Shown: positions 4,635 through 25,270 of the stretch, in pieces | Numbering within the stretch: the stretch's first letter is position 1 | How the letters are laid out: each line of letters begins with the position of its first letter | The notes under the pieces: generated by a model | The model's input: only the letters and a program-made list of their open reading frames with translations | Database searches by the model: none | Told to the model about the DNA's origin: nothing | From: Ignavibacterium sp. | Lineage (GTDB): Bacteria > Bacteroidota > Ignavibacteria > Ignavibacteriales > Ignavibacteriaceae | Assembly (NCBI GenBank): GCA_032027145.1 | Contig: JAVSMP010000001.1 | Span: forward strand, 2,795,116 to 2,859,115 | Reading direction: 5' to 3' | DNA: 64,000 nt | Translations under genes and position numbers: made by a program

Positions 4635-5838
4635 CAAAAATATTCCAGTAATTATGTATCATAGTGTTGGCATACCAAATAAAAAATGGCATTGGAATTT
4701 TTTGACATGTCCATGGATGATTTTTGAAGATCAAATGCAGTGGATTAAAAATAATGGCTATACAACAATTCACCTTGACGATTTATATAGTTTTATTTAC
4801 GCTGGTAAGACTTTGCCAGATAAACCAATAGTATTAACTTTTGATGATGGTTACTTGGATAATTATGTGTTTGCCTATCCTTTGTTAAAAAAATATGGAT
4901 TAAAAGGTACCATATTTATTAATCCTGAATTTGTCGATCCACGACTTATTAAACGGAAACAATTTGATCAAACAGATGACATATCTAAACTTGAGACTGA
5001 TGGTTTTTTATCTTGGGAAGAAATCGAAGAGATGTTTGCAGATAATATTTTTGATTTTCAATCACATGCTTTAACTCATACCTGGTATCCTATTTCAAAC
5101 GAGATTGTTGATTTTCGTCATCCAGACGATAATTACATTTGGATGACATGGAACGATAACATAGATAAAAAGCCTTATCTTCAAACTGATGATAAGAAAT
5201 TAATTGAATTAGGTGCACCCGTTTATAAATATTCAAAAAGTTTAAGTGCTCCAAGATATTTCCCTGATGATAAATTGAAAGATTTTCTTCTTACATTTGT
5301 AAGAGAAAATGGAGGTAAATTATTTTTTGGTAATACAGATTGGCAAAATATTTTATATCAAAAGGTAGAAGAATATAGAGCAAACAATGAAATTATTGAT
5401 TGTGTTGAAACTGAAAATGAATATTATGAAAGAATAAAACATGAATTAACTTCAAGTAAAAATATTTTAGAAAATCGACTTAAAAAGAAAGTTAATTTTT
5501 TATGCTGGCCCGGTGGCAGTGGCACTAAAGTTGGCATAGAATTATCAAAAATAATTGGTTATAAAATGACCACTGCAGCCAAGGACTTATCAAAGCAATC
5601 AAGAAGGAAAATTAAGAATAATCCTTCTAAACCTTGTTCAAGAATATCACGCATCAGTCCAATTTATTATGAAAGTTTAAACAAGAATGGTGGAATTGAT
5701 GTAACATATTCAGGAAGTCGTATTTATGGGATGAAAATTAAATCTTTTGAAAATAATTTCATTAAATCTTTTATGTGGAAATCACTTTTTTATCTATTTG
5801 CATTCATTTCAAAACTTAATAACAAACTAATTAAATGA
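4627..5838 (+). CDS. Polysaccharide deacetylase family protein (NodB fold)
   Basis: This 403-aa protein contains the NodB motif 1 TFDDGYLDN near residue 75, with the catalytic base and metal-ligand aspartates, and motif 2 SHALTH with the two metal-binding histidines. The N-terminus VIMYHSVG is typical of this branch. It would remove an N- or O-acetyl group from a sugar. No signal peptide is visible, so it may act on a cytoplasmic lipid-linked intermediate. The domain is interrupted by a long insertion between motifs 2 and 3, where CWPGGSG may represent the motif containing the catalytic Trp region. The ATG at 4627 overlaps the previous stop by 8 bases and is preferred over a TTG at 4618. The C-terminus has a hydrophobic patch. 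Confidence 0.85.
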   Translation: MSNKNIPVIMYHSVGIPNKKWHWNFLTCPWMIFEDQMQWIKNNGYTTIHLDDLYSFIYAGKTLPDKPIVLTFDDGYLDNYVFAYPLLKKYGLKGTIFINPEFVDPRLIKRKQFDQTDDISKLETDGFLSWEEIEEMFADNIFDFQSHALTHTWYPISNEIVDFRHPDDNYIWMTWNDNIDKKPYLQTDDKKLIELGAPVYKYSKSLSAPRYFPDDKLKDFLLTFVRENGGKLFFGNTDWQNILYQKVEEYRANNEIIDCVETENEYYERIKHELTSSKNILENRLKKKVNFLCWPGGSGTKVGIELSKIIGYKMTTAAKDLSKQSRRKIKNNPSKPCSRISRISPIYYESLNKNGGIDVTYSGSRIYGMKIKSFENNFIKSFMWKSLFYLFAFISKLNNKLIK

Positions 5839-14312: not shown

Positions 14313-14420
14313 TGTTTTTATGATCCTGAAAATTGTGTGTGGCAATTTACGATTTAGAATTCAGAAATTACAATGTAATAGAAAAACAATTAGGGCAAGT
14401 AATTGATAAGCGAGAAGCTA

Positions 14421-15230
14421 TAAGTAAAAACAATAAATGACCACCAATGACCTAATGACTTTTTCCTTTGCTCTGTCCTTTTTTTTTGTAAGAGAGGTTA
14501 GGTGAGTTCAAATGATTAGAAGCAATAAGTAAAAATAATAAATGACTACAAATGACCTAATGACTTTTCCTTTGCTCTGTCATTTTTTGTAAGAGAGGTT
14601 AGGTGAGTTCAAATGATTAGAAGCAAGAAATAAAAAACAATAAATGACCACTAATGACCTAATGACTTTTCTTTTTGTTCTATCCCTCTCTTTTCAAAAG
14701 AGGTTAGGTGAGTTCAAATGGTTAGAAGCAAGAAGTAAAAACAATAAATGACCACCAATGACCTAATGACTTTTTCCTTTGCTCTGTCCTTTTTTTTTGT
14801 AAGAGAGGTTAGGTGAGTTCAAATGATTAGAAGCAAGAAGAAAAACAATAAATGACCACCAATGACCTAATGACTTTTTCCTTTGCTCTGTCCTTTTTTT
14901 GTAAGAGAGGTTAGGTGAGTTCAAATGGTTAGAAGCAAGAAGTAAAACAATAAATGACCACCAATGACCTAATGACTTGTATTTGTCCTGTCCCTCTCTT
15001 TGCAAGAGAGGTTAGGTGAGTTCAAATGATTAGAAGCAAGAAGTAAAACAATAAATGACCACCAATGACCTAATGACTTTCTCCTTTGCTCTGTCCTTTT
15101 TTTGTAAGAGAGGTTAGGTGAGTTCAAATGATTAGAAGCAAGAAGTAAAACAATAAATGACCACCAATGACCTACCGACTTGTGTTTGCCCTATCCCTCT
15201 CTTTTCAAGAGAGGTTAGGTGAGTTTATAG
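14421..15230. repeat. Tandem array, eight copies of a 101-105 bp intergenic unit
   Basis: Eight head-to-tail units are recognised by the shared word GAGGTTAGGTGAG at about 14494, 14595, 14700, 14805, 14907, 15008, 15110 and 15211. Each unit holds AGAAGCAAGAAGTAAAA, then three AATGAC words (AATGACCACCAATGACC and TAATGACT), a T-rich stretch with CTTTGCTCTGTCC, and the GAGAGGTTAGG end. In some copies (last unit, 15196-15214) the T-rich part is CCTCTCTT, which pairs perfectly with AAGAGAGG across a 3-nt loop. In others the left arm has decayed to poly-T. No conserved protein is encoded; a minus-strand ORF through units 4-6 is only the repeat translated. Period and lack of spacer diversity rule out CRISPR. 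Confidence 0.9.
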
Positions 15231-15437: not shown

Positions 15438-15641
15438 ATGGTTAAAGAAGCAAAAATAATATATAGAAGCGAAGCAGAAACAGAAGAAATAAAATTCTGG
15501 AATAACAAATCTTACGCTGAAAAATTATCGATTATTCAAATACTGAGAGAACAATATATTACATTATACAACAAAGAGGAAGAGTATGCTGAAAGCAGAA
15601 AAAGACTTCGAAGAGTTTATAGAATTATTAAACAAGTTTAA
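15438..15641 (+). CDS. Small charged protein, possible antitoxin partner
   Basis: This 67-aa protein is rich in Lys, Glu and Arg and predicted mostly helical (KSYAEKLSIIQILREQY, YAESRKRLRRVYRIIKQ). It has no membrane segment and no recognised domain. It overlaps the following nucleotidyltransferase gene by 56 bases in another frame, the arrangement usual for toxin-antitoxin and MNT/HEPN-like modules. I infer an antitoxin or partner role only from this overlap and from the neighbour; there is no direct motif support. Confidence 0.6.
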   Translation: MVKEAKIIYRSEAETEEIKFWNNKSYAEKLSIIQILREQYITLYNKEEEYAESRKRLRRVYRIIKQV

Positions 15642-16050
15642 TGTTGAATATATGATTATAGGTGCTTATGCTCTTGCATTATATGCCCGTCCAAGAAACA
15701 CTGGTGATATTGATATATTTATAAATAATACCCTTAATAATGCAAAACTGCTTATAAAAGTTATCAGTGAATTTGGATTTGAAAGCACAGGTATTAAAGA
15801 AAATGATTTCACTACAAAAGGCAGGATGATTCAACTCGGTGTATCACCTGTTAGAATTGATATAATTAATGAAATTGATGGAGTTGATTTTTTGAGCGCA
15901 TTTAAAAACAAAGAAACATTTCAATTTGGAAAAGTTTTTGCAAATTTTATTTCTAAATCTGATTTGATAAAGAACAAAAAGGCAAGTAATCGAAAAAAAG
16001 ATATCGCCGATCTGGATGAATTAGAGAAATTCAGCAATAATTCTGACTAA
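15586..16050 (+). CDS. Nucleotidyltransferase-fold protein (AbiEii/DUF6036-like), putative toxin
   Basis: This 154-aa protein begins with a helix (EEFIELLNKFNVEY), then MIIGAYALALYARPRNTGDIDIFI. That is the nucleotidyltransferase core pattern of family members with a G-A/G-x-A start, R-x-T and a D-I-D metal motif at about residues 44-46. Later PVRIDIIN fits the third acidic strand. Similar proteins are annotated as nucleotidyltransferase toxins of abortive-infection or toxin-antitoxin pairs. Here it is encoded with an overlapping small gene and lies between two repeat arrays, which suggests an acquired module. The usual serine of the GS motif is replaced (GAYAL), as in many DUF6036-type members. 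Confidence 0.72.
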   Translation: MLKAEKDFEEFIELLNKFNVEYMIIGAYALALYARPRNTGDIDIFINNTLNNAKLLIKVISEFGFESTGIKENDFTTKGRMIQLGVSPVRIDIINEIDGVDFLSAFKNKETFQFGKVFANFISKSDLIKNKKASNRKKDIADLDELEKFSNNSD

Positions 16051-16445: not shown

Positions 16446-19163
16446 CTACCCGGCTTTTTTTCTTGTAAGTTGTGCTTTAAGATCCAGAGTTATAATTAAA
16501 TTTGCAAGCTCTCTGCCGTCAATATACATTGTGCCGTTAGTGATACGTTCGTTAAATTCTCCGTTAGTAATGATAAATTTCCTTTTAATCTCATTTGCTG
16601 CTGGTTTAAAATGGACTACTTCTTCATAGTCTTCTTTTCTAACATTGGTTGTAAGCAGACATTTACAATGCAGATTAACCGGTGTAGATCCTTTACGTGC
16701 TTTACCGATAATATAAAACATAGGTTCATCATCAATATCCATAATTGTAATATCGCGGTAGCCGAGGAAACTGAAAAAATACTTCATTATTGCTTTGTAT
16801 CCGCTAAGATCAATTGATTGTAGTTTATTAAGCACTTTATTACGATCATTGTTAAGTGACTTTTTGTAACCATCATTCATACCGAAAATAGTAAGCCAGT
16901 CATCAGGCGTAATTAATTCTGATAATGTTTCACTTTTTATATTATCAAAAAGATATCTGTTTGAAAAACCTTTTTCTTCAAGTACATAAAGCAGATCTTC
17001 TTCAAATGTTTGACGGATGTTATAATTGTACATTACCACTGAAGATGCAGCTGGATCATTTATACCAATTTCATCATCATTTTGCCATACAGTAACAGGA
17101 TTCCACCACAGATCAAAATTAAATATATATGATACTTTGGAAAGATTAAGTTTTAATCGAGATGGTTTCAGATTTGTCAGCAGAACGGTTACATCGCTTC
17201 TGTCGTAAAAATTATCGAGTGAGTTTTTAAGGTCCTCTGCAGACATACCATTACGTCCGACAACAAATCTTACATTATTCGCATCAAAAACCTTCTCTAA
17301 TTTTTTCATTCCATTCTCATCGTACTGAGTAAACACAACAGCTTTTTTCTTGTTGCTATGAACAGCATTTAGTTGTTCAGTTAACAGATTGGCTTTTGGA
17401 CTTATATTCCGGAATGAGGAGAAATTGAGTATCTGTTTTAGTTTGTGAATGATTGTAAATATATTACTCTGAAACCTGATTGGATTCGGGCTGTCAAACA
17501 GAGTATTAAGTTCTTCCTTCGCTTGAGTTATTGCTTCATTGTATTCAAATAACTGCATTTCATCTGGTGATAACCAAATATCTTTTATTAAAGCAGTATG
17601 TTTTCCTTTCCTTAGATCTTTAATCGTATTACCAAAAAAAGCTAATTCTATTTTTTGTGTGAAAGGTAATTCCTCAAGATGTTTTTTAAGCGCTTTCTGA
17701 TTATTAATTGCAGATAAAAACCAAATATAAGTTGGTTCAATATGGGTAATAATCTGATCTATCTGCTGAGATGCATAACGATAATTGATTAGTTCATCAA
17801 ATAAAACCAGATCAATTTTATCAAAATCCTTTAGCTCTGATCTACCAAGATCATCAATATCTGCAAACCAGATAACAGATGCCCCTTTAACTTTTCTTGT
17901 TGTACCGGGTTCATATTTTTTTATCTTTAATTCTCGTGTAAACTGTTTAAATGAATATGACCAGAATTCTTTAAATCTGTTCTTCTCACTTATAAGAAGA
18001 ATAGATTTAATACTGCCCTTCTTGAATAAGTATGAAAGCGAAGCAGCAACAGAATTAAATTTTTCGCAGCCCAGTTCATCACACAATACTGCAAAGGGAT
18101 TGGATGTTAGAAATTCACCCTGACTTATATCATAAGGATCAAGTTGATTAAGTGAAGATGAAAAATCTGTCCAGCTTAATTCCCGATAAGAAGATAGAAG
18201 ACTGTTAATAATATTTTTTGTACCCTCTGTAATCCGCTCATCATTAAGGGCATCAATAATTACAGGATCAAAATTCTTTTGTTTGACTACAACTTTTTTG
18301 ACTATTGTTCTGGGTAAATCTATTCGCACTTTAAATACCGGATGAGGTATATCGAAAGACGGCGAATAAAACTGCACATCTGCAGGAATCAGATAATCAA
18401 ACGGAATAAAATGTGAAACTGCTGTACTGTTAATAATATCATCAATACCGGGCACTTTAATTTGTGCGACATCGGGCAACGATATATATGAATTATTCAG
18501 ATCATCAGATATAGAAAGCGACTCTTCAAATTGTTCGACACTAAGCAGATCAATATTAAAAACTTCTGGAATCAGATCAGCCAGATAATCTTTAACCTCC
18601 GGTAGTGAAATCAAATATGGAACTTCCTTTATTGGTTTCTCTTCAATTTCGAAATCGGGATTTGAATGCGGGACAGACTGTAAAATAAATGTGTCTGACT
18701 TATCACTTGTCTCTGATTTACTTACAATAAACAAAGGTGATTGATCCAATACTTTTGTCTGCTCACCTATAAATAAAGAAGACTGATCAACTACCTTAGG
18801 AATCTGAGGAAGTTGAGAGTTGAGACTGTAAATCTTTACTTCATCAAGCAATCTTTCTTTAAGAGTAAACAATTGAGGTTTTGTAAGACCAAAAAATATC
18901 AGATAAGCTCTTGGATGTTCCAGTAGATATTTTTGTTTTAAAGCAGGTATATCAAGGATATCAAGCTTGAATTTTAATTTAAGTGAGTTAGGTAATTTAA
19001 GCTGTTCAACTTCAAAGCCATCCAGCACTTCAGAATAGTAAAGAGCTTTTACCTCATGGTTTTTAATACGCGGAGGTCTAAGCCATTTTGCAAAATGGAA
19101 ATCATCTGTAAGATCTATCTTAGCAACTTTAGACGCTATTTTAGATCGTGCTGTCCGGATCAT
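16446..19163 (-). CDS. Degenerate SNF2-like helicase protein with C-terminal Mrr-like nuclease domain
   Basis: This is a 905-aa protein. Residues 1-330 are unrecognised, with a repeated motif (VVDQSSLFI at 114-122 and VLDQSPLFI at 128-136). Residues 345-575 follow the SNF2 N-lobe: AVLCDELGCEKFNS (348-361) stands where ADEMGLGKT should be, so the Walker A lysine-threonine is lost. VLFDELINYR (443-452) stands for the DEAH box, and HKLKQILNF (563-571) matches the LRQICNHP position. Residues 597-690 follow the C-lobe: KAVVFTQYDENG, VGRNGMSAEDLKN, LLTNLKPSRLKLNL, FDLWWNPVTVWQNDDEIG. Residues 778-890 resemble Mrr-type restriction domains: FLGY, DDEPMF, LHCKC (the QAK position), FIITNGEF, and YIDGRELANLI. 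My reading is a DNA-binding remodeller fold that has probably lost ATP hydrolysis, fused to a nuclease-like tail. It is co-transcribed with the 178-aa gene upstream. Confidence 0.72.
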   Translation of the reverse strand: MIRTARSKIASKVAKIDLTDDFHFAKWLRPPRIKNHEVKALYYSEVLDGFEVEQLKLPNSLKLKFKLDILDIPALKQKYLLEHPRAYLIFFGLTKPQLFTLKERLLDEVKIYSLNSQLPQIPKVVDQSSLFIGEQTKVLDQSPLFIVSKSETSDKSDTFILQSVPHSNPDFEIEEKPIKEVPYLISLPEVKDYLADLIPEVFNIDLLSVEQFEESLSISDDLNNSYISLPDVAQIKVPGIDDIINSTAVSHFIPFDYLIPADVQFYSPSFDIPHPVFKVRIDLPRTIVKKVVVKQKNFDPVIIDALNDERITEGTKNIINSLLSSYRELSWTDFSSSLNQLDPYDISQGEFLTSNPFAVLCDELGCEKFNSVAASLSYLFKKGSIKSILLISEKNRFKEFWSYSFKQFTRELKIKKYEPGTTRKVKGASVIWFADIDDLGRSELKDFDKIDLVLFDELINYRYASQQIDQIITHIEPTYIWFLSAINNQKALKKHLEELPFTQKIELAFFGNTIKDLRKGKHTALIKDIWLSPDEMQLFEYNEAITQAKEELNTLFDSPNPIRFQSNIFTIIHKLKQILNFSSFRNISPKANLLTEQLNAVHSNKKKAVVFTQYDENGMKKLEKVFDANNVRFVVGRNGMSAEDLKNSLDNFYDRSDVTVLLTNLKPSRLKLNLSKVSYIFNFDLWWNPVTVWQNDDEIGINDPAASSVVMYNYNIRQTFEEDLLYVLEEKGFSNRYLFDNIKSETLSELITPDDWLTIFGMNDGYKKSLNNDRNKVLNKLQSIDLSGYKAIMKYFFSFLGYRDITIMDIDDEPMFYIIGKARKGSTPVNLHCKCLLTTNVRKEDYEEVVHFKPAANEIKRKFIITNGEFNERITNGTMYIDGRELANLIITLDLKAQLTRKKAG

Positions 19164-19171
19164 ATTGATAC

Positions 19172-19705
19172 TTAATCGTTAGTGCGCTGTAGCTGTACCT
19201 GTTCGCAAGCAGCTTTAAGCCTTTCGAATGGTTCAGATAAGTTGCGTGATTCTGATATTTTTTCCAGACTTGCTTTAATACCCTTTAGTTCTTCAGCAAA
19301 CTTTTTTGAAGTTTCGATAAAACCTTTTGCTGCTCCGTTCATAGGAGTATTGAGTGCCTCAAGTGCAGTATTACTGATTGATTTCTGTTTTTCATCAGAA
19401 AGAAGACGAATAACTCTTATTCCCTGTTTCTGGTTAGCACCGAGAAATAGCGGATCTTTCACAATTATCAGATCTATTTGTTCATTAACAGCATTTAGCA
19501 AAGGTACAGATATTAATTCAACCAAAATATGTTCTAATAAAACATCACCGTATAATGTTTTCTGAAAGCTGGTAGGCTTTATTGGTGCTGTAACCCTGAA
19601 TTCCAGCGGTTTTGTTTCTGCATCAGTTACAAGAATGGCTCCCATCACTCCGCCATTATCATTAAGTGTATAGGTTTCAAGAAAAGCTAATTTTGCAATT
19701 TCCAT
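19172..19705 (-). CDS. Unknown 177-aa protein, operon partner of the SNF2/Mrr-like gene
   Basis: No family recognised. The first 105 residues look alpha/beta (GGVMGAILVTDAETKPLEF, YGDVLLEHILVELISVPLL, IDLIIVKDPLFLGANQ). The rest (about 120-170) is charged and helical, probably coiled-coil. It has no signal peptide or membrane segment. Two ATGs abut at 19708 and 19705; a GGAG lies 7 bases before the second, so I use 19705. Its stop is only 8 bases before the start of the 905-aa gene, so the two are almost certainly one transcript and probably act together. Confidence 0.75.
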   Translation of the reverse strand: MEIAKLAFLETYTLNDNGGVMGAILVTDAETKPLEFRVTAPIKPTSFQKTLYGDVLLEHILVELISVPLLNAVNEQIDLIIVKDPLFLGANQKQGIRVIRLLSDEKQKSISNTALEALNTPMNGAAKGFIETSKKFAEELKGIKASLEKISESRNLSEPFERLKAACEQVQLQRTND

Positions 19706-19708
19706 CAT

Positions 19709-20295
19709 TATTCTCCGACTAACAAATTATTGATAAATTTTCTATCAAAGATTTTCAATATTAGTGCCATGATTTAGACAGAAATAAGCTTAGTTGATAA
19801 TTTGAATTTAGAAGTAAAATATACAGGTGAAATAATTATAGGGTGTCAAAAGTGACGCATAAAACCTTGTTTAACAAATAAAAAAGAAGAAAACTTATTT
19901 TCAACAAAATTATTTTCTGTTAATATACTTTTTGCATGAATATTCTACCTGATACAATCAATGGTTAATTGGTATGTAAAAAATTATTTCAGGTAATTTA
20001 TTTTACATAAGAAGAAATTTTTGTCTGAATGTGGAAAAATCAAATATTAAAAAAAGATATTTAAATTGAGATTTAACTTAAATATATGATTGCAATTGAG
20101 TAATCATTATATAATGTGTAGTTAGTCAAATGACAAATAATAACCATTTATAAATAATTAATGTTCATAAGCTGCTGATCAATCTCCAACCTGCATTAAC
20201 CTAATTCCTAGATCAGCAACTTCACATCTACTTGACAGTGAGAAAAGTATTATCTATCTTTATATAGACTTAATCTAAATAATTTGCAAGAACTT
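19709..20295. other. Intergenic region between divergent operons
   Basis: About 590 AT-rich bases separate the divergent unknown operon and feoAB. I see no ORF. It must hold both promoters. A palindrome TAATCATTA at 20101-20109, set in TGAGTAATCATTATATAA, is loosely like a Fur box and lies about 190 bases before feoA; this is weak evidence. Confidence 0.4.
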
Positions 20296-20517
20296 ATGAA
20301 AACAGCTTCAAAATTAAATTTCGGTGAAAAAGGGATTATATCTGATATAGATAATACACATCCGTCATTTAGAAGAATATTAGAAATCGGTTTTACTCCA
20401 GGTCAGGAAATACAATTAATAAACTCATCTGCATTTAATGATCCATTAGCCTTTTCTTTAAGAGGAACTTTAATTGCAATAAGGAAACAAGAAGCTGATT
20501 GTATAATTTTATCCTGA
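20296..20517 (+). CDS. feoA: FeoA, ferrous iron transport accessory protein
   Basis: This 73-aa SH3-like protein shows the FeoA pattern FGEKGIISDID, FRRILEIGFTPGQEIQLI and RGTLIAIRKQEA. It partners with FeoB at the cytoplasmic side of the membrane. The ATG at 20296 is preferred over a TTG at 20284. The gene ends 7 bases before the FeoB start, and the two form the usual feoAB operon. Confidence 0.92.
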   Translation: MKTASKLNFGEKGIISDIDNTHPSFRRILEIGFTPGQEIQLINSSAFNDPLAFSLRGTLIAIRKQEADCIILS

Positions 20518-20524
20518 GAGTGTG

Positions 20525-22579
20525 ATGAATAATGACTCAGCAGTTAAGCTGCAGTTAATAACATTAGTAGGTCCGCCAAACTCCGGTAAAACAACTCTTT
20601 TTAATTTACTAAGTGGAAAAAATTTAAAGACAGTAAACTATCCCGGCTCTACAGTTGAATATTCAATTGGTAAAATACAAAGTAGATTTGATATAAATGC
20701 AGATATACTTGATTCACCTGGCATAATTAGTTTAAATCCAAATTCTCCTGACGAAGAAATTTCTGTAAACTCTCTTTACCATCATCCAATTTATGGTTCA
20801 CCGAATTTGGTAATAACTACTGTTGATGCAAGTCAGATATCACGGCATTTATTATTATCTATGCAGCTTATTTCATCTGGTTTTGATGTAATAGTTGTGC
20901 TAACAATGAACGACATTATGGAAAAAAGAGGGTTTAAGGTTGATGAGAAAAAACTTTCAGAAGAACTTGGATGCAATGTAATTAAAGTAAATGGTAGAAC
21001 AGGTGCCGGAATAGATGAATTAGTGAATCAGTTGAAACATAAAACTGGTGATAATGGTTCTGCATCAAAATCGAATAATCAGACTATAGAAAAAGTACCG
21101 AAAAAGATTTTTGAAAATGCTGGAAAAGAGCAGTTGTTAAAGCTATATTCTGATATTGAGGAAATTGAAAAAAAGGTAATAACTCCCCTGCCGGCTTTAT
21201 CAGAAAAGAATTTGCTGAATGCTAACAAAAGTCTTAAGATATTAAACCCAACATTAAGATCGGGGAATAATCAGCCTGATGAATTAACATTGAAGATAGA
21301 TAAATATCTGCTTGATAAACGCTTGGGATTAATATTTTTCTTTCTAATTATGTCATTGATGTTTACATCTATTTTTTGGGCTGCTGATCCATTTATGAAT
21401 TGGATAGATGGGTTTTTTGGATGGCTCTCTTCAATTACTGCAGAGTATTTTGGTGACACATGGTACGGTGATTTAATTGCTGATGGAATTATAAGCGGCA
21501 CAGGTTCAGTGTTAGTATTTTTGCCGCAGATTTTAATATTATTCTTAATACTTGGTTTATTAGAGGATACAGGATATTTAGCTCGTGGTGCAATGTTAAT
21601 TGATAAACCTTTATCAAAAATTGGATTGAATGGTAAATCATTTGTTCCAATGCTATCAGGATTCGCTTGTGCAATCCCAGCAATACTTTCTGCACGTACA
21701 ATTTCTAACCGGAGAGAAAGGCTGCTTACTATTTTCATAATACCATTAATGAGCTGCAGCGCCCGTTTGCCTATATATGCATTATTAATTGCATTCTTAA
21801 CACCGTCAGATAAATTATGGATAGGTGGTATCGTATTAGCAATTATATATATTGCCAGCACGATTGCTTCGTTGATAATTGCAGCAATTATAAATAAATT
21901 CAATAAAAGATTAATTAAAGCAGAAGATAATTCTTCCTTTATATTAGAGCTACCTGCTTATAGAATGCCAAAAGCAAGAGTCGTAATCAGAAATTCTTAT
22001 GATAACGCAAAGCAGTATATCCTAAGAGCTGGCCCTGTAATAATGGTTTTATCAATGATGATTTGGTTTCTTACTTATTTCCCGAATCATAGCCCGGTTA
22101 TAGACGAAGCAGGATTAAATAATGAAGAAATTGAACAGATGATAAAATCAGAAAGACTTGCAACATCCTACGCTGCAGATATGGGTAAATTTATCCAGCC
22201 GGTTATGACTCCTTTAGGAATGGACTGGAGAGTTGGTGTTGCATTGATTTCAGCATTTGCAGCTAGGGAAGTATTTGTTAGTTCCTTAGTATTAATCTTC
22301 AAAGTAACAGACAGTGGTGATATTCGGGCATCAATGATTTCAGCAATGAGAAATGCAAAAATTGAAGAGACAGGTGAGCAGTTATTTACTCCGGCTACTA
22401 CTTTGGGGTTAATTGTTTTTTTTATGTTTGCATTGCAGTGTTTGTCAACGGTTGCTGTTTCAAGAAAAGAAACAGGCGGATGGAGAATTCCCATTTTACA
22501 GATTGTGATATTTACTTCAACCGCGTACATACTTACATTTTTTACTGTTAATGTATTAAGATATGCAGGTATTGCTTAG
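20525..22579 (+). CDS. feoB: FeoB, ferrous iron transporter with GTPase domain
   Basis: This 684-aa inner-membrane Fe(II) transporter has an N-terminal G domain with G1 GPPNSGKTT (residues 16-24), YPGSTVE (G2 region), DSPG (G3) and TMND (G4). About 200 linker residues follow, then the membrane domain with gate motifs LEDTGYLARGAML and GFACAIPAI, the second Nucleoside_recognition-like segment, and REVFVSSL near the C-terminus. Length is near the usual 650-770. There is no fused FeoC. The ATG at 20525 is preferred over the GTG at 20522. It is followed by a fur gene, which implies iron control of the locus. Confidence 0.95.
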   Translation: MNNDSAVKLQLITLVGPPNSGKTTLFNLLSGKNLKTVNYPGSTVEYSIGKIQSRFDINADILDSPGIISLNPNSPDEEISVNSLYHHPIYGSPNLVITTVDASQISRHLLLSMQLISSGFDVIVVLTMNDIMEKRGFKVDEKKLSEELGCNVIKVNGRTGAGIDELVNQLKHKTGDNGSASKSNNQTIEKVPKKIFENAGKEQLLKLYSDIEEIEKKVITPLPALSEKNLLNANKSLKILNPTLRSGNNQPDELTLKIDKYLLDKRLGLIFFFLIMSLMFTSIFWAADPFMNWIDGFFGWLSSITAEYFGDTWYGDLIADGIISGTGSVLVFLPQILILFLILGLLEDTGYLARGAMLIDKPLSKIGLNGKSFVPMLSGFACAIPAILSARTISNRRERLLTIFIIPLMSCSARLPIYALLIAFLTPSDKLWIGGIVLAIIYIASTIASLIIAAIINKFNKRLIKAEDNSSFILELPAYRMPKARVVIRNSYDNAKQYILRAGPVIMVLSMMIWFLTYFPNHSPVIDEAGLNNEEIEQMIKSERLATSYAADMGKFIQPVMTPLGMDWRVGVALISAFAAREVFVSSLVLIFKVTDSGDIRASMISAMRNAKIEETGEQLFTPATTLGLIVFFMFALQCLSTVAVSRKETGGWRIPILQIVIFTSTAYILTFFTVNVLRYAGIA

Positions 22580-22625
22580 GTAAATAATATGTCTGATATT
22601 AAAGCAGCATTAAAGTATTCTTTTA

Positions 22626-22640
22626 TGATAATAATTGAGT
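22626..22640 (+). promoter_or_regulatory. Possible Fur-box half-site upstream of fur
   Basis: TGATAATAATTGAGT, 8 bases before the fur start codon, matches the left half of the TGATAAT-N-ATTATCA consensus perfectly and three bases of the right half. It may be an autoregulatory site. In AT-rich DNA such matches arise by chance, so confidence is low. Confidence 0.25.
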
Positions 22641-22647
22641 TAAAAAA

Positions 22648-23097
22648 GTGAGAAACGAAAAAGCAGCAGAGGTATTCAGGGAATTTTTAAAAAAAGGTAA
22701 AAACCGGATAACACCTGAAAGATTTGAAGTCCTTGATGAAGCACTTGAACATGAAGGACATTTTGGAGCTGATGATCTTTTTATTAAACTAAAGACATCA
22801 AAATCCAAGGTGTCTCGAGCAACAGTTTACAACACCTTGGAACTTTTAGCACATTGTGATCTTTTAAGTAAGCGTAATTTTGGTGACAATATTACAAGAT
22901 ATGAAAGCAATTACAAACGCCAAACCCACGATCATCTGATTTGTGTTGACTGCGGAAAGATAGTTGAGTTTTCGGATCCAAGATTAAACATAATGCCTAA
23001 AGAGATCAGCGAGAAACTGGGTTATGAATTGGATAGCTATTCCTTTAATATTTTTGCCAGATGTAAGAATAAAAAAGACTGCCGCACGAAGAAATAA
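22648..23097 (+). CDS. fur: Fur-family metal-responsive repressor
   Basis: This 149-aa protein has an N-terminal winged helix (RITPERFEVLDEALEHEGHFGADDLF, then SRATVYNTLELL, the classic Fur recognition helix region). The metal-binding domain has HDHLICVDCGKIVEF with its H-x-H and C-x2-C, and a second pair CKNKKDC near the end that would complete a structural zinc site. It starts at GTG 22648, since an in-frame TGA at 22636 rules out an earlier start. Position after feoAB suggests iron-sensing Fur; PerR or Zur cannot be fully excluded. Confidence 0.9.
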   Translation: MRNEKAAEVFREFLKKGKNRITPERFEVLDEALEHEGHFGADDLFIKLKTSKSKVSRATVYNTLELLAHCDLLSKRNFGDNITRYESNYKRQTHDHLICVDCGKIVEFSDPRLNIMPKEISEKLGYELDSYSFNIFARCKNKKDCRTKK

Positions 23098-23123
23098 TCT
23101 TATAAACAAACACACCTTAGACT

Positions 23124-23837
23124 ATGAAAAAAATTAAATATCCAATAAGCTGGAGCAAAGATAATTTTTCAATAAAGATTTTCTGTTCGATACCGAATAT
23201 TGCAACAGGAATACTTGTTAAAGCATCTGAAACCTTTTTTATAGTTGATCCGGGTGATGGTATATTAAGAGACCTTAATAAAGAACTAAAGCCAAATCAG
23301 ATATTACAAGTATCAGACATTTTTATTACACACGGACATCACGATCATGTTGGAGGTGTTTGGTCTTTATTGACATATCTGCGTGTTATGAATAAAACAT
23401 CTCTGCTTACGATTCATTTTCCCAAAGGATGTATTGAGATTTTACATATACACAATGCATTTAAAAAAGTGTATGGAGATGATCTGCCTTACAAAATAAA
23501 ACTAAATGAGATTGATAAAAGCAAGCCTTTTGTCACAAACAAAGTGAAAGTGACCCCATTCCCGGTAGTCCATAAAGAGTATTTATTTGATAAGAAAACA
23601 ACAAGACAGGTACCTTCACTTGGTTTTAAATTTACTTTTGAAAAAAAGAATATCTGTTATGGTGGCGATACTGCATATTGTCTCGAACTTGTAAAACAAG
23701 CAAAAGGAGCAGACCTGGCAATTATTGAGGCAGGACACGATGAAGATACTCCTGATGGAATACACATGACATTGAATGAAGCAAAATCAATCGGCGAGAC
23801 AGCAAAAGAGTATTTCTTAGTGCACGTACCTGAATAA
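23124..23837 (+). CDS. MBL-fold metallohydrolase, RNase Z-like
   Basis: This 237-aa protein has the metallo-beta-lactamase signature THGHHDHVGG at about residues 69-78, a further metal ligand in PVVHKEY, GGDTAY (bridging Asp), and a late IHMT histidine. The arrangement resembles the RNase Z/ElaC branch but the protein is shorter than classical RNase Z, and the exosite arm is not seen. It is a cytoplasmic hydrolase of unknown substrate. It lies 26 bases after fur and may be co-transcribed. Confidence 0.82.
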   Translation: MKKIKYPISWSKDNFSIKIFCSIPNIATGILVKASETFFIVDPGDGILRDLNKELKPNQILQVSDIFITHGHHDHVGGVWSLLTYLRVMNKTSLLTIHFPKGCIEILHIHNAFKKVYGDDLPYKIKLNEIDKSKPFVTNKVKVTPFPVVHKEYLFDKKTTRQVPSLGFKFTFEKKNICYGGDTAYCLELVKQAKGADLAIIEAGHDEDTPDGIHMTLNEAKSIGETAKEYFLVHVPE

Positions 23838-24453: not shown

Positions 24454-25089
24454 CTAATAAAAAAATCTTATACCAATTCTACTCATAAATCCACTCATAT
24501 TATATGATCTTTCCAAAACAGTAGCTGGAAAATCAAATCTGTCATCTTTGTAAGTCCAACTTGGATGCGATCTATGATAAGTTATTTCACCAAACAACTC
24601 CGAGCGGGGACTAATGGCAACCGCTGCACCAATTGTTACACGCCAGTTAAAGTCAAACGCTGCTTCAAATTCATCATCCATTGGATCTTGAAAATTTCGA
24701 TAATTAATAATTAACAATTCAGCACCCATAAAACCAGCGGCATAAAATTGTGAATGATTAGATGTTGGAAAGCGTGCTGTTAAACCGAACATTAAAGGAA
24801 AATCATGAATATTAGTTGAAGCCCTTAATTCATTAACCTCACCGAGTGCGCCGGGATAATAGTAATTTAATTCAGTCACAAGTTTTTTATCAACATAATT
24901 TCTGCTAAACCAATCAAGGCTCCAGTTCCAGCTAAAGAATTTGTCAACATGTTTGCCGCCTTCAATCCCTAATATAAAACCGCCATCTGATGCCGATGGA
25001 TTGAAGTAACCGAGTTTTACCGCGCCTGTATTCCATTGCCCAAATACAGATAGATTAATAAATACAAGTAATAATGATAAGCGTTTCAT
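24454..25089 (-). CDS. Outer-membrane beta-barrel protein, unknown
   Basis: This 211-aa protein has a short signal peptide (RLSLLLVFINLSVFG, cleavage near FGQ at residue 18). It then has repeated amphipathic strands with glycines and aromatics (GFILGIEGGKHV, FYAAGFMGAELL, WRVTIGAAVAIS) and a terminal strand SRIGIRFFY with the aromatic C-terminal residue expected for BAM-inserted barrels. It is like generic 8-strand porin-family proteins; substrate or role unknown. It is transcribed away from the phosphatase/kinase operon. Confidence 0.7.
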   Translation of the reverse strand: MKRLSLLLVFINLSVFGQWNTGAVKLGYFNPSASDGGFILGIEGGKHVDKFFSWNWSLDWFSRNYVDKKLVTELNYYYPGALGEVNELRASTNIHDFPLMFGLTARFPTSNHSQFYAAGFMGAELLIINYRNFQDPMDDEFEAAFDFNWRVTIGAAVAISPRSELFGEITYHRSHPSWTYKDDRFDFPATVLERSYNMSGFMSRIGIRFFY

Positions 25090-25270
25090 AAATCACCATT
25101 TGATTTATTTTGAGCTAAACCAATCTTAGTGCCATAATATTCTTTGATGTTCTTAAAGAAATTTCATTGTTTATCAGGTGTATGTATTCAGAATCAAACA
25201 AATAGGTGTAGAAAAAATAGAACGATATTAAATGTTTTTTTAATTTGCGATATTGAAAAATCAATAAATA

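Follow-up and report, generated by a model that had tools for sequence, protein, structure and literature searches.

A 64,000 nt stretch of the 3.67 Mb, single-contig genome of Ignavibacterium sp. (contig JAVSMP010000001.1, positions 2,795,116 to 2,859,115; hereafter the window) includes a pair of adjacent minus strand genes, the products of which seem to have been reshaped from a helicase-nuclease module. The downstream gene, A (16446..19163), encodes a 905 aa protein with an N-terminal region modelled at low confidence (residues 1-302), a putative SNF2-type pseudo-helicase and a putative Mrr-type pseudo-nuclease. The upstream gene, B (19172..19708), ends 8 bases before A and encodes a small protein with a predicted RNase H-like fold, closest to those of Endonuclease V (EndoV) and Endo_dU; the open reading frame (ORF) as called is 178 aa long, and its second ATG, at 19705, is the start found in relatives, giving 177 aa. 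The best explanation of this locus, which we consider to have about an even chance of being correct, is that a module that was probably once a conflict system has been exapted as an ATP-independent, nucleic acid-binding scaffold for B. This builds on computed homology, motif loss, pairing, synteny, purifying selection and mostly vertical inheritance. The ORF positions, the 8 base gap and the motifs quoted in an initial annotation of the window agree with the ORF calls and alignments.

The SNF2 fold that had been proposed for A is supported by profile searches and by structure prediction. Pfam Helicase_C matches the protein with E=1e-6, with ResIII falling below the cut-off, and the AlphaFold model, generated from a 24-row alignment, is mostly confident over residues ~330-900, whilst its first 302 residues are poorly modelled. 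Residues 328-762 (16878..18182) align with the Sulfolobus SNF2 core 1z6a at a VIA Z score of 21.1 (root mean square deviation (rmsd) 4.5, 414 residues aligned), and a Foldseek search with the model finds 1z63_A with E=6.3e-18; A is hence predicted to contain two RecA-like lobes of the SNF2 type. Within these, the Walker A position reads CDELGCEKF (residues 361-369; 18057..18083), the Walker B position FDELIN (residues 455-460, of which FDEL is encoded at 17790..17801) and motif VI WWNPVTVWQNDDEIG (residues 686-700, in a region extending to residue 701 at 17061..17108). The Walker A lysine, K368, and the acidic pair of Walker B, D456-E457, persist, whilst the second glycine of the P-loop (E367), the Thr/Ser that follows the lysine (F369) and both arginine fingers of motif VI (E698, I701) have been lost. 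Judged by these residues, window A has neither the GxGK[T/S] motif nor the arginine fingers of an active ATPase, and has probably lost ATP hydrolysis. The pseudo-ATPase suggested previously therefore stands with regard to GxGKT and the arginine fingers, but is qualified by the survival of K368 and D456-E457.

Degeneration of these motifs extends throughout the lineage. Following the removal of four partial rows, an alignment of 47 A proteins left 38 full-length copies from the Ignavibacteria clade (the ingroup) and five from an outgroup. GxGK[T/S] is found in 11/38 ingroup copies, against 5/5 in the outgroup; the DE of motif II in 20/38, against 5/5; and both motif VI arginines in 0/38, against 5/5, with a single arginine in five of the ingroup sequences. 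All 11 copies with GxGK[T/S] are therefore without the arginine-finger pair. Amongst the 27 Walker-degenerate copies, an equivalent of K368 is present in 21 and absent from six, and DE is present in 15; across the ingroup, E or D replaces the second P-loop glycine in 21/38 copies. As evidence that would tell against it, the initial annotation had named a lack of predicted helicase lobes or of a PD-(D/E)XK fold, and an invariably intact GKT in homologues; the lobes are predicted, profile comparison finds the C terminus to be homologous to Mrr (see below), and GKT is not invariably intact. In a quick tree from which the motif I and VI columns had been taken out, the Ignavibacteria rows formed one starred branch, and the distribution of GKT and degenerate labels needed five changes, at least three of them forced by starred branches; Walker A has therefore probably been lost more than once. 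The number of losses is approximate, as the tree has long branches (L047, L064 and L080) and several sequences, some from the outgroup, are of unusual composition.

The C-terminal part of A (residues 766-900; 16464..16868) lies outside the list of structural matches for the protein, and its assignment stands on profiles. Aligning 21 Ignavibacteria C termini with hhalign to three bona fide Mrr domains, taken from L091 and L127, gave a probability of 98 and E=1.9e-13; Pfam Mrr_cat is matched by 11 of the 21 relatives (best 3.4e-8), and by window A itself with E 0.12. Profile comparison therefore identifies this region as a homologue of Mrr-type PD-(D/E)xK domains. The Mrr-type C terminus noted initially is upheld as regards homology, but its degeneracy had gone unremarked: the catalytic D and Q are gone, with Y817 at the place of the aspartate and H832 at that of the glutamine. 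The lysine of the LHCKC motif, previously numbered K824, is K834 and is retained; H832-C833-K834 (16662..16670) was recognised by eye as the probable QxK remnant, at a shift of two residues relative to the ungapped hhalign alignment. D plus [QE]xK occurs in none of the 38 ingroup copies, hence the nuclease, too, appears degenerate, and the domain is missing altogether from three of them (L044, L064 and L076). GG[VI]D...QCK is, by eye, retained in both outgroup proteins with Pfam Mrr_cat.

B has no Pfam match, including to the EndoV family PF04493, and none or weak ones in NCBIfam and PADLOC; comparison with PDB by sequence gave nothing useful (best E 2). The model of the protein (predicted local distance difference test score 85.3) has the element order of an RNase H-like fold, with a best Foldseek E of 1.3e-5. 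Its closest structural matches are EndoV 3ga2 (VIA Z 12.8, rmsd 3.3, 167 residues aligned) and Endo_dU (DUF99) 2qh9 (Z 12.7), well above the best Z of 7-8 quoted by the tool as typical of unmatched models, and are followed by TM1739, PIWI/Argonaute, UvrC and NurA. A structural identity, an RNase H-like fold of the EndoV type, can thus be predicted for a protein without a Pfam match.

The candidate functional residues of B correspond to those of EndoV in part. D29, E36 and R38 are invariant in 20/20 alignment rows and in L127, which lies outside the alignment; E64 and D85 (the ends of a segment encoded at 19454..19519) are invariant in the same 20 rows, with L127 having D and E there. A weak hhalign alignment with three EndoV-family sequences (probability 29, E 5.9e-4) pairs E64 with the helix Glu of EndoV, and puts K84 on the strand Asp and D85 one residue past it. 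The position of the first catalytic acid, matched by eye, is occupied by E in 13/20 rows, D in one, G in three and A in three, and by A in L127. As far as can be judged from the alignments, B does not have the complete set of EndoV catalytic acids, beginning with the strand 1 Asp, and membership of EndoV is not claimed, the hhalign match being weak and D85 displaced by one residue. Missing residues do not prove B to be inactive, because Endo_dU is described as an active nuclease that cuts deoxyuridine-containing DNA with an incomplete DEDD tetrad (PMC11585767).

Acidobacteria also have more distant B-like proteins (24 of 26 matches, with E of 1e-12 to 1e-21); no SNF2 gene was found in the 4.5-15 kb stretches around 19 of these 24. 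Several of the distant proteins (L128-L146) are encoded in operons with genes for a ~280 aa protein, FHA proteins and, by eye, Ser/Thr kinases, with FHA and GGDEF confirmed beside one Acidobacteria gene. These FHA/kinase operons place the B fold in a second setting, that of signalling. Matches to PF04493 itself were found in family f3 of the window's order (L170, L171 and L172); the frames of L170 and L172 are ~170 aa long and have DGxVWLG instead of the DGHG of E. coli.

The 177 aa protein had been put forward as an unknown partner of A. A search for co-occurring homologues shows the pairing to be constant in all close relatives seen with both genes, although the partner now has a predicted EndoV-like RNase H fold: an A-profile ORF directly follows B in 19/19 B-bearing loci of one genome set, in 38/38 of a second that overlaps with it, and in each of five outgroup loci with a whole B. 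In the loci of the two genome sets, the genes overlap or are separated by at most 28 bases. B is found in 42/164 genomes of the order, including the six genus members listed, and in 10/395 genomes of an even sample of the phylum, all of which belong to the window's order. Scanning bacterial and archaeal contigs with a B profile identified 43 loci: 38 close ones, in which B is 51-98% identical and which carry the titles of Ignavibacteria, Bacteroidetes or similar metagenome-assembled genomes (MAGs) and, in one case (L061), of a gammaproteobacterial MAG, and five that are more distant.

B precedes a complete SNF2 protein in L089 (Nostoc), L090 (Symplocastrum), L091 (Desulfobacteraceae) and L093 (Acidobacteria), as well as in L127, a second Acidobacteriota genome outside the 43-locus scan, and SNF2 motifs I, II and VI are intact in all five. 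Their C termini differ, consisting of Mrr_cat in L091 (4.1e-18) and L127 (2.6e-21), a PNP_UDP_1 nucleosidase in L089 (3.2e-17), no effector in L093 and a tail without assignment in L090. HsdR_N and Mrr genes neighbour L091, HNH and Mrr genes L093, and PIN genes L089 and L127. These loci are sparse, being found in 1/291 genomes of the class of L091, 1/291 of the order of L089 and, linked to SNF2, two of 297 Acidobacteriota; B occurs in 1/203 genomes of the phylum of L091, and that of L089 has one strong and two weak matches in 199, with no SNF2 in the stretches examined around the two weak ones. The swapping of effectors, together with the sparse distribution, is suggestive of a conflict system. 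Searches of plasmids (with B from L090 and from L091), phages (with B from L090) and viral contigs (with the B profile) found no relative, nor did a viral structure library yield any match below 1e-3. In Nostoc mirabile (L092, 7097-7648), the start of B is fused into a piece of an SNF2 C-lobe, a remnant of a collapsed module.

In the window, the pair lies beside divergently oriented feoA, feoB, Fur-family and MBL-fold hydrolase genes (20284..23837, plus strand), a synteny that is conserved. The degenerate clade that includes the window has 20 rows, of which 17, window included, can be tested; in all 17 feoB lies upstream in divergent orientation, the other three rows having insufficient flanking DNA. 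Outside this clade feoB is a neighbour in one (L047) of 14 rows with at least 4 kb upstream, and it adjoins none of the seven testable Walker-intact copies. As essentially one clade is involved, the association between degeneracy and feoAB is not independent evidence of cause. Inheritance was assessed with trees of 18 genomes: that of rpoB has 9/15 splits in common with A and 9/15 with B, and A and B share 12/15, whilst 1,000 label shuffles reached at most three splits for rpoB-A and five for rpoB-B. Within the window's clade, the history of the pair is for the most part that of rpoB and the core genome, indicating mostly vertical inheritance. The patchy distribution, mobility and defence neighbours of a mobile defence island are not seen in this clade; in the outgroup, distribution is patchy and neighbours are mixed. 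The locus had been described as a typical place for defence genes, a view at odds with its constant feoB neighbour, its largely core-genome inheritance, the lack of relatives in plasmids, phages and viral contigs with the queries used and the lack of any PADLOC match (E 0.001) amongst the 10 ORFs neighbouring the pair.

Both genes are under purifying selection. Between the window and its nearest relative, the genus member G002, in which the A gene is 91% identical, the ratio of nonsynonymous to synonymous substitution rates (dN/dS) is 0.074 (NG86) or 0.041 (YN00) for A, 0.070 or 0.046 for FeoB and 0.030 or 0.010 for B, with a faster neighbouring gene at 0.151 or 0.140. The Mrr and lobe-2 parts alone, compared between the window and G005, have a dN/dS of ~0.02 (YN00), with dS above 1; several parts have a dS that approaches or exceeds 1, and YN00 is not usable on saturated pairs. 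Over long distances A is far faster, L036 being 34% identical to the window in A, against 77% in B, 68% in FeoB and 79% in Fur.

Some 50 bases upstream of B lies the block TGGCACTAATATTG (19756..19769, minus strand), conserved in 6/6 genus copies but not in L036. It matches the pattern TGGCAC-N5-TTG, which occurs three times in the window (19756-19769 and 25121-25134 on the minus strand, 5520-5533 on the plus strand) against an expectation of 0.31; two copies are just upstream of genes, namely B and a 211 aa ORF at 24454-25089, suggesting that these are sigma-54-like promoters. The consensus of the sigma-54 -12 box is TTGC, and the box upstream of B is TTGA. PAS/GAF or GAF histidine kinases are encoded between B and feoA in L038, L039 and L042; with the sigma-54-like element, they hint at regulated rather than constitutive use of the pair. 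The promoter region on the feoA side (20230-20283) CTTGACAG ... TTTATATAGACTAAATCTAAATAAT) is nearly invariant in the genus, unlike much of the intergenic DNA, and contains an inverted repeat that could be a candidate box for a metal regulator.

From these data we infer a conflict-system ancestry, formation of a complex, nucleic acid binding, an activity of B and a physiological role. The ancestor would have been a two-gene module, probably a restriction-like conflict system, in which an RNase H-fold B accompanied an SNF2 translocase that was active and carried at its C terminus an exchangeable effector (Mrr nuclease, nucleosidase or none). In Ignavibacteria, helicase and nuclease catalysis would have been lost, most simply before the divergence of the known copies, and in the window's clade the module would have turned into a fixed chromosomal locus beside feoAB-fur. 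There, the two pseudo-helicase lobes may hold DNA (or RNA) as an ATP-independent clamp, with the pseudo-Mrr domain contributing an extra nucleic acid contact, and B, as the conserved subunit scaffolded by A, may read or cut a particular nucleic acid feature. To serve as a nucleic acid-binding scaffold is the most likely role of A; the inactive lobe of DndH, posited to bind DNA, offers a precedent (PMC10853773). A more specific proposal is rather unlikely in its full form: that B is the sole active enzyme, a nuclease of the EndoV/Endo_dU kind or a reader of lesions or modifications, aimed by the double pseudoenzyme A in a complex domesticated from an immune module to housekeeping, sigma-54-controlled genome or RNA care in Ignavibacteria.

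Several observations sit uneasily with the scaffold explanation. B may itself be inert, its first catalytic acid not being conserved, and A may still bind nucleotides, since K368 and D456-E457 remain. The lobe-2 and Mrr sequences are strongly conserved within the genus, which would be equally compatible with an activity that has been retained but is unusual. The conflict ancestry stands on five sparse outgroup loci, and the neighbours of two of these are housekeeping genes (ribosomal L21/L27 and HemB by L090; AlaS and an RsmB-like gene, plus the PIN gene, by L089). Six of the 15 rpoB splits are missing from the A tree and six from the B tree, which may reflect noise or some transfer. Finally, the A copy of L061 breaks off once some 250 residues have been aligned, its frame stopping within the contig, whereas the other three partial A rows reach contig ends. 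This copy (L061, 986-2254), in a contig titled Gammaproteobacteria, has a B that is 71% identical and an A frame ending after 422 aa, and represents a broken copy, misassembly or contamination.

The strongest of the alternatives, although still unlikely, is that the pair remains an immune system in which the pseudo-helicase senses invading DNA without ATP and the EndoV/Endo_dU-like B is the effector. Immune proteins often evolve fast, and over family distances A is far faster than its neighbours, as the comparison with L036 demonstrates; the effectors of the outgroup are swapped, some of its neighbours are Mrr, HNH, HsdR_N and PIN genes, and Endo_dU, the second structural match of B, is active despite its incomplete DEDD set (PMC11585767). 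Several points argue against it, however. In the window's clade the locus is fixed and has been inherited mostly vertically, the 10 neighbouring ORFs gave no PADLOC match, and the queries used found no relative in plasmids, phages or viral contigs; the strand acid of B is one residue off that of EndoV in a weak alignment, and its first acid is not conserved. Defence, as initially annotated, is accordingly not supported at this fixed feoAB-fur locus, and such a role is disfavoured for this host.

Decidedly unlikely is a nucleotide-binding switch, whereby K368 and D456/E457 let A bind ATP without hydrolysing it, and A informs B of the energy or damage state of the cell. Retention of the lysine in 21/27 and of DE in 15/27 Walker-degenerate copies would fit, as would the 11/38 copies with GxGK[T/S] and no arginine-finger pair; yet the Mg2+-binding Thr/Ser is lost, the second P-loop glycine is acidic in 21/38 ingroup copies and six of the 27 have also lost the lysine. 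There is a slight chance that A, instead of deriving from a defence system, is an accessory protein of transcription like RapA: RapA is amongst the structural matches of A, and both the sigma-54-like element before B and the GAF/PAS histidine kinases of L038, L039 and L042 would accord with this, but RapA is no closer to A than many other SNF2 proteins are, and homology to Mrr suggests kinship with the SNF2 proteins that are fused to nucleases. Lastly, chance persistence of a decaying pseudogene, as might be imagined from the repeated loss of active sites, the three ingroup copies without Mrr and the broken L061, is scarcely credible and was rejected: A is under the same constraint as FeoB by dN/dS, and the 38 full-length ingroup frames are open over 755-1164 aa. 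The exapted scaffold remains the explanation we favour.

Beyond the pair, the nearby repeat array and toxin-antitoxin-like genes noted initially are both present. The tandem array at 14413-15225 consists of 7.9 copies of a 102 bp unit with 88% matches, and adjoins a sugar-nucleotide epimerase/dehydratase-like gene. At 15438-16050, a DUF2204 nucleotidyltransferase ORF and an overlapping 67 aa ORF resemble a toxin-antitoxin pair; the match in the nearest relative (L031) spans just 85 residues, and there is no PADLOC match.

No title or abstract describing a B-SNF2 pair was found in the literature, where a text search cannot find a nameless family, nor any paper combining Ignavibacteria and SNF2. 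A Snf2-nuclease fusion has reportedly been found in Halomonas, and may show the active form to be of a known kind. Amongst defence systems, ZorD of Zorya type I resembles A in having an SNF2 core and an Mrr-type domain in a single chain; it is the best PADLOC match (PDLC00633, 237-249 bits) of the four outgroup A proteins scanned, which exclude L127, and ZorD 8qy7 is amongst the structural matches of window A (Z 17.2, rmsd 21). However, window A matches ZorD weakly (E=0.004) and is without both active sites, and the partner is B rather than ZorA, B and C. Membership of Zorya was rejected, as no match to ZorA, B or C was found amongst the 10 neighbouring ORFs; a match of B itself to ZorA (E 0.005, residues 58-166) is probably due to chance. 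A also resembles DpdE, DrmD and BrxH, mainly in lobe 2, but no cognate genes of Dpd, DISARM or BREX were evident, the 10 neighbours having no PADLOC match.

EndoV and Endo_dU, the best structural neighbours of B, differ from it in that B is paired with SNF2 in close relatives; relative to EndoV, B also has a first Asp that is not conserved, K84 at the strand Asp and no PF04493 match. DndH of DndFGH has an inactive SWI2/SNF2 lobe without arginine fingers that is posited to bind DNA (PMC10853773), a likeness to A. DndH has lobe 2 alone with an active restriction endonuclease and an HerA/FtsK ATPase, whereas A keeps both lobes and has an apparently dead endonuclease. In the YprA-family systems (TALON, Druantia I/II), a helicase is likewise found with Vsr or RNase H-fold domains that have been inactivated, but these systems belong to another helicase family, and the excerpt of PMC12458937 neither calls the helicases dead nor mentions a B protein. 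Pseudo-helicases and pseudo-nucleases are known singly, whereas here a lineage-wide family appears to have lost both activities in one chain, which selection maintains alongside a still more conserved partner. With intact living relatives and a graded series of losses (the arginine-finger pair and the nuclease triad in 0/38, Walker A gone from 27/38, Mrr absent from 3/38), the route by which a probable immune machine would have turned into a scaffold is directly testable.

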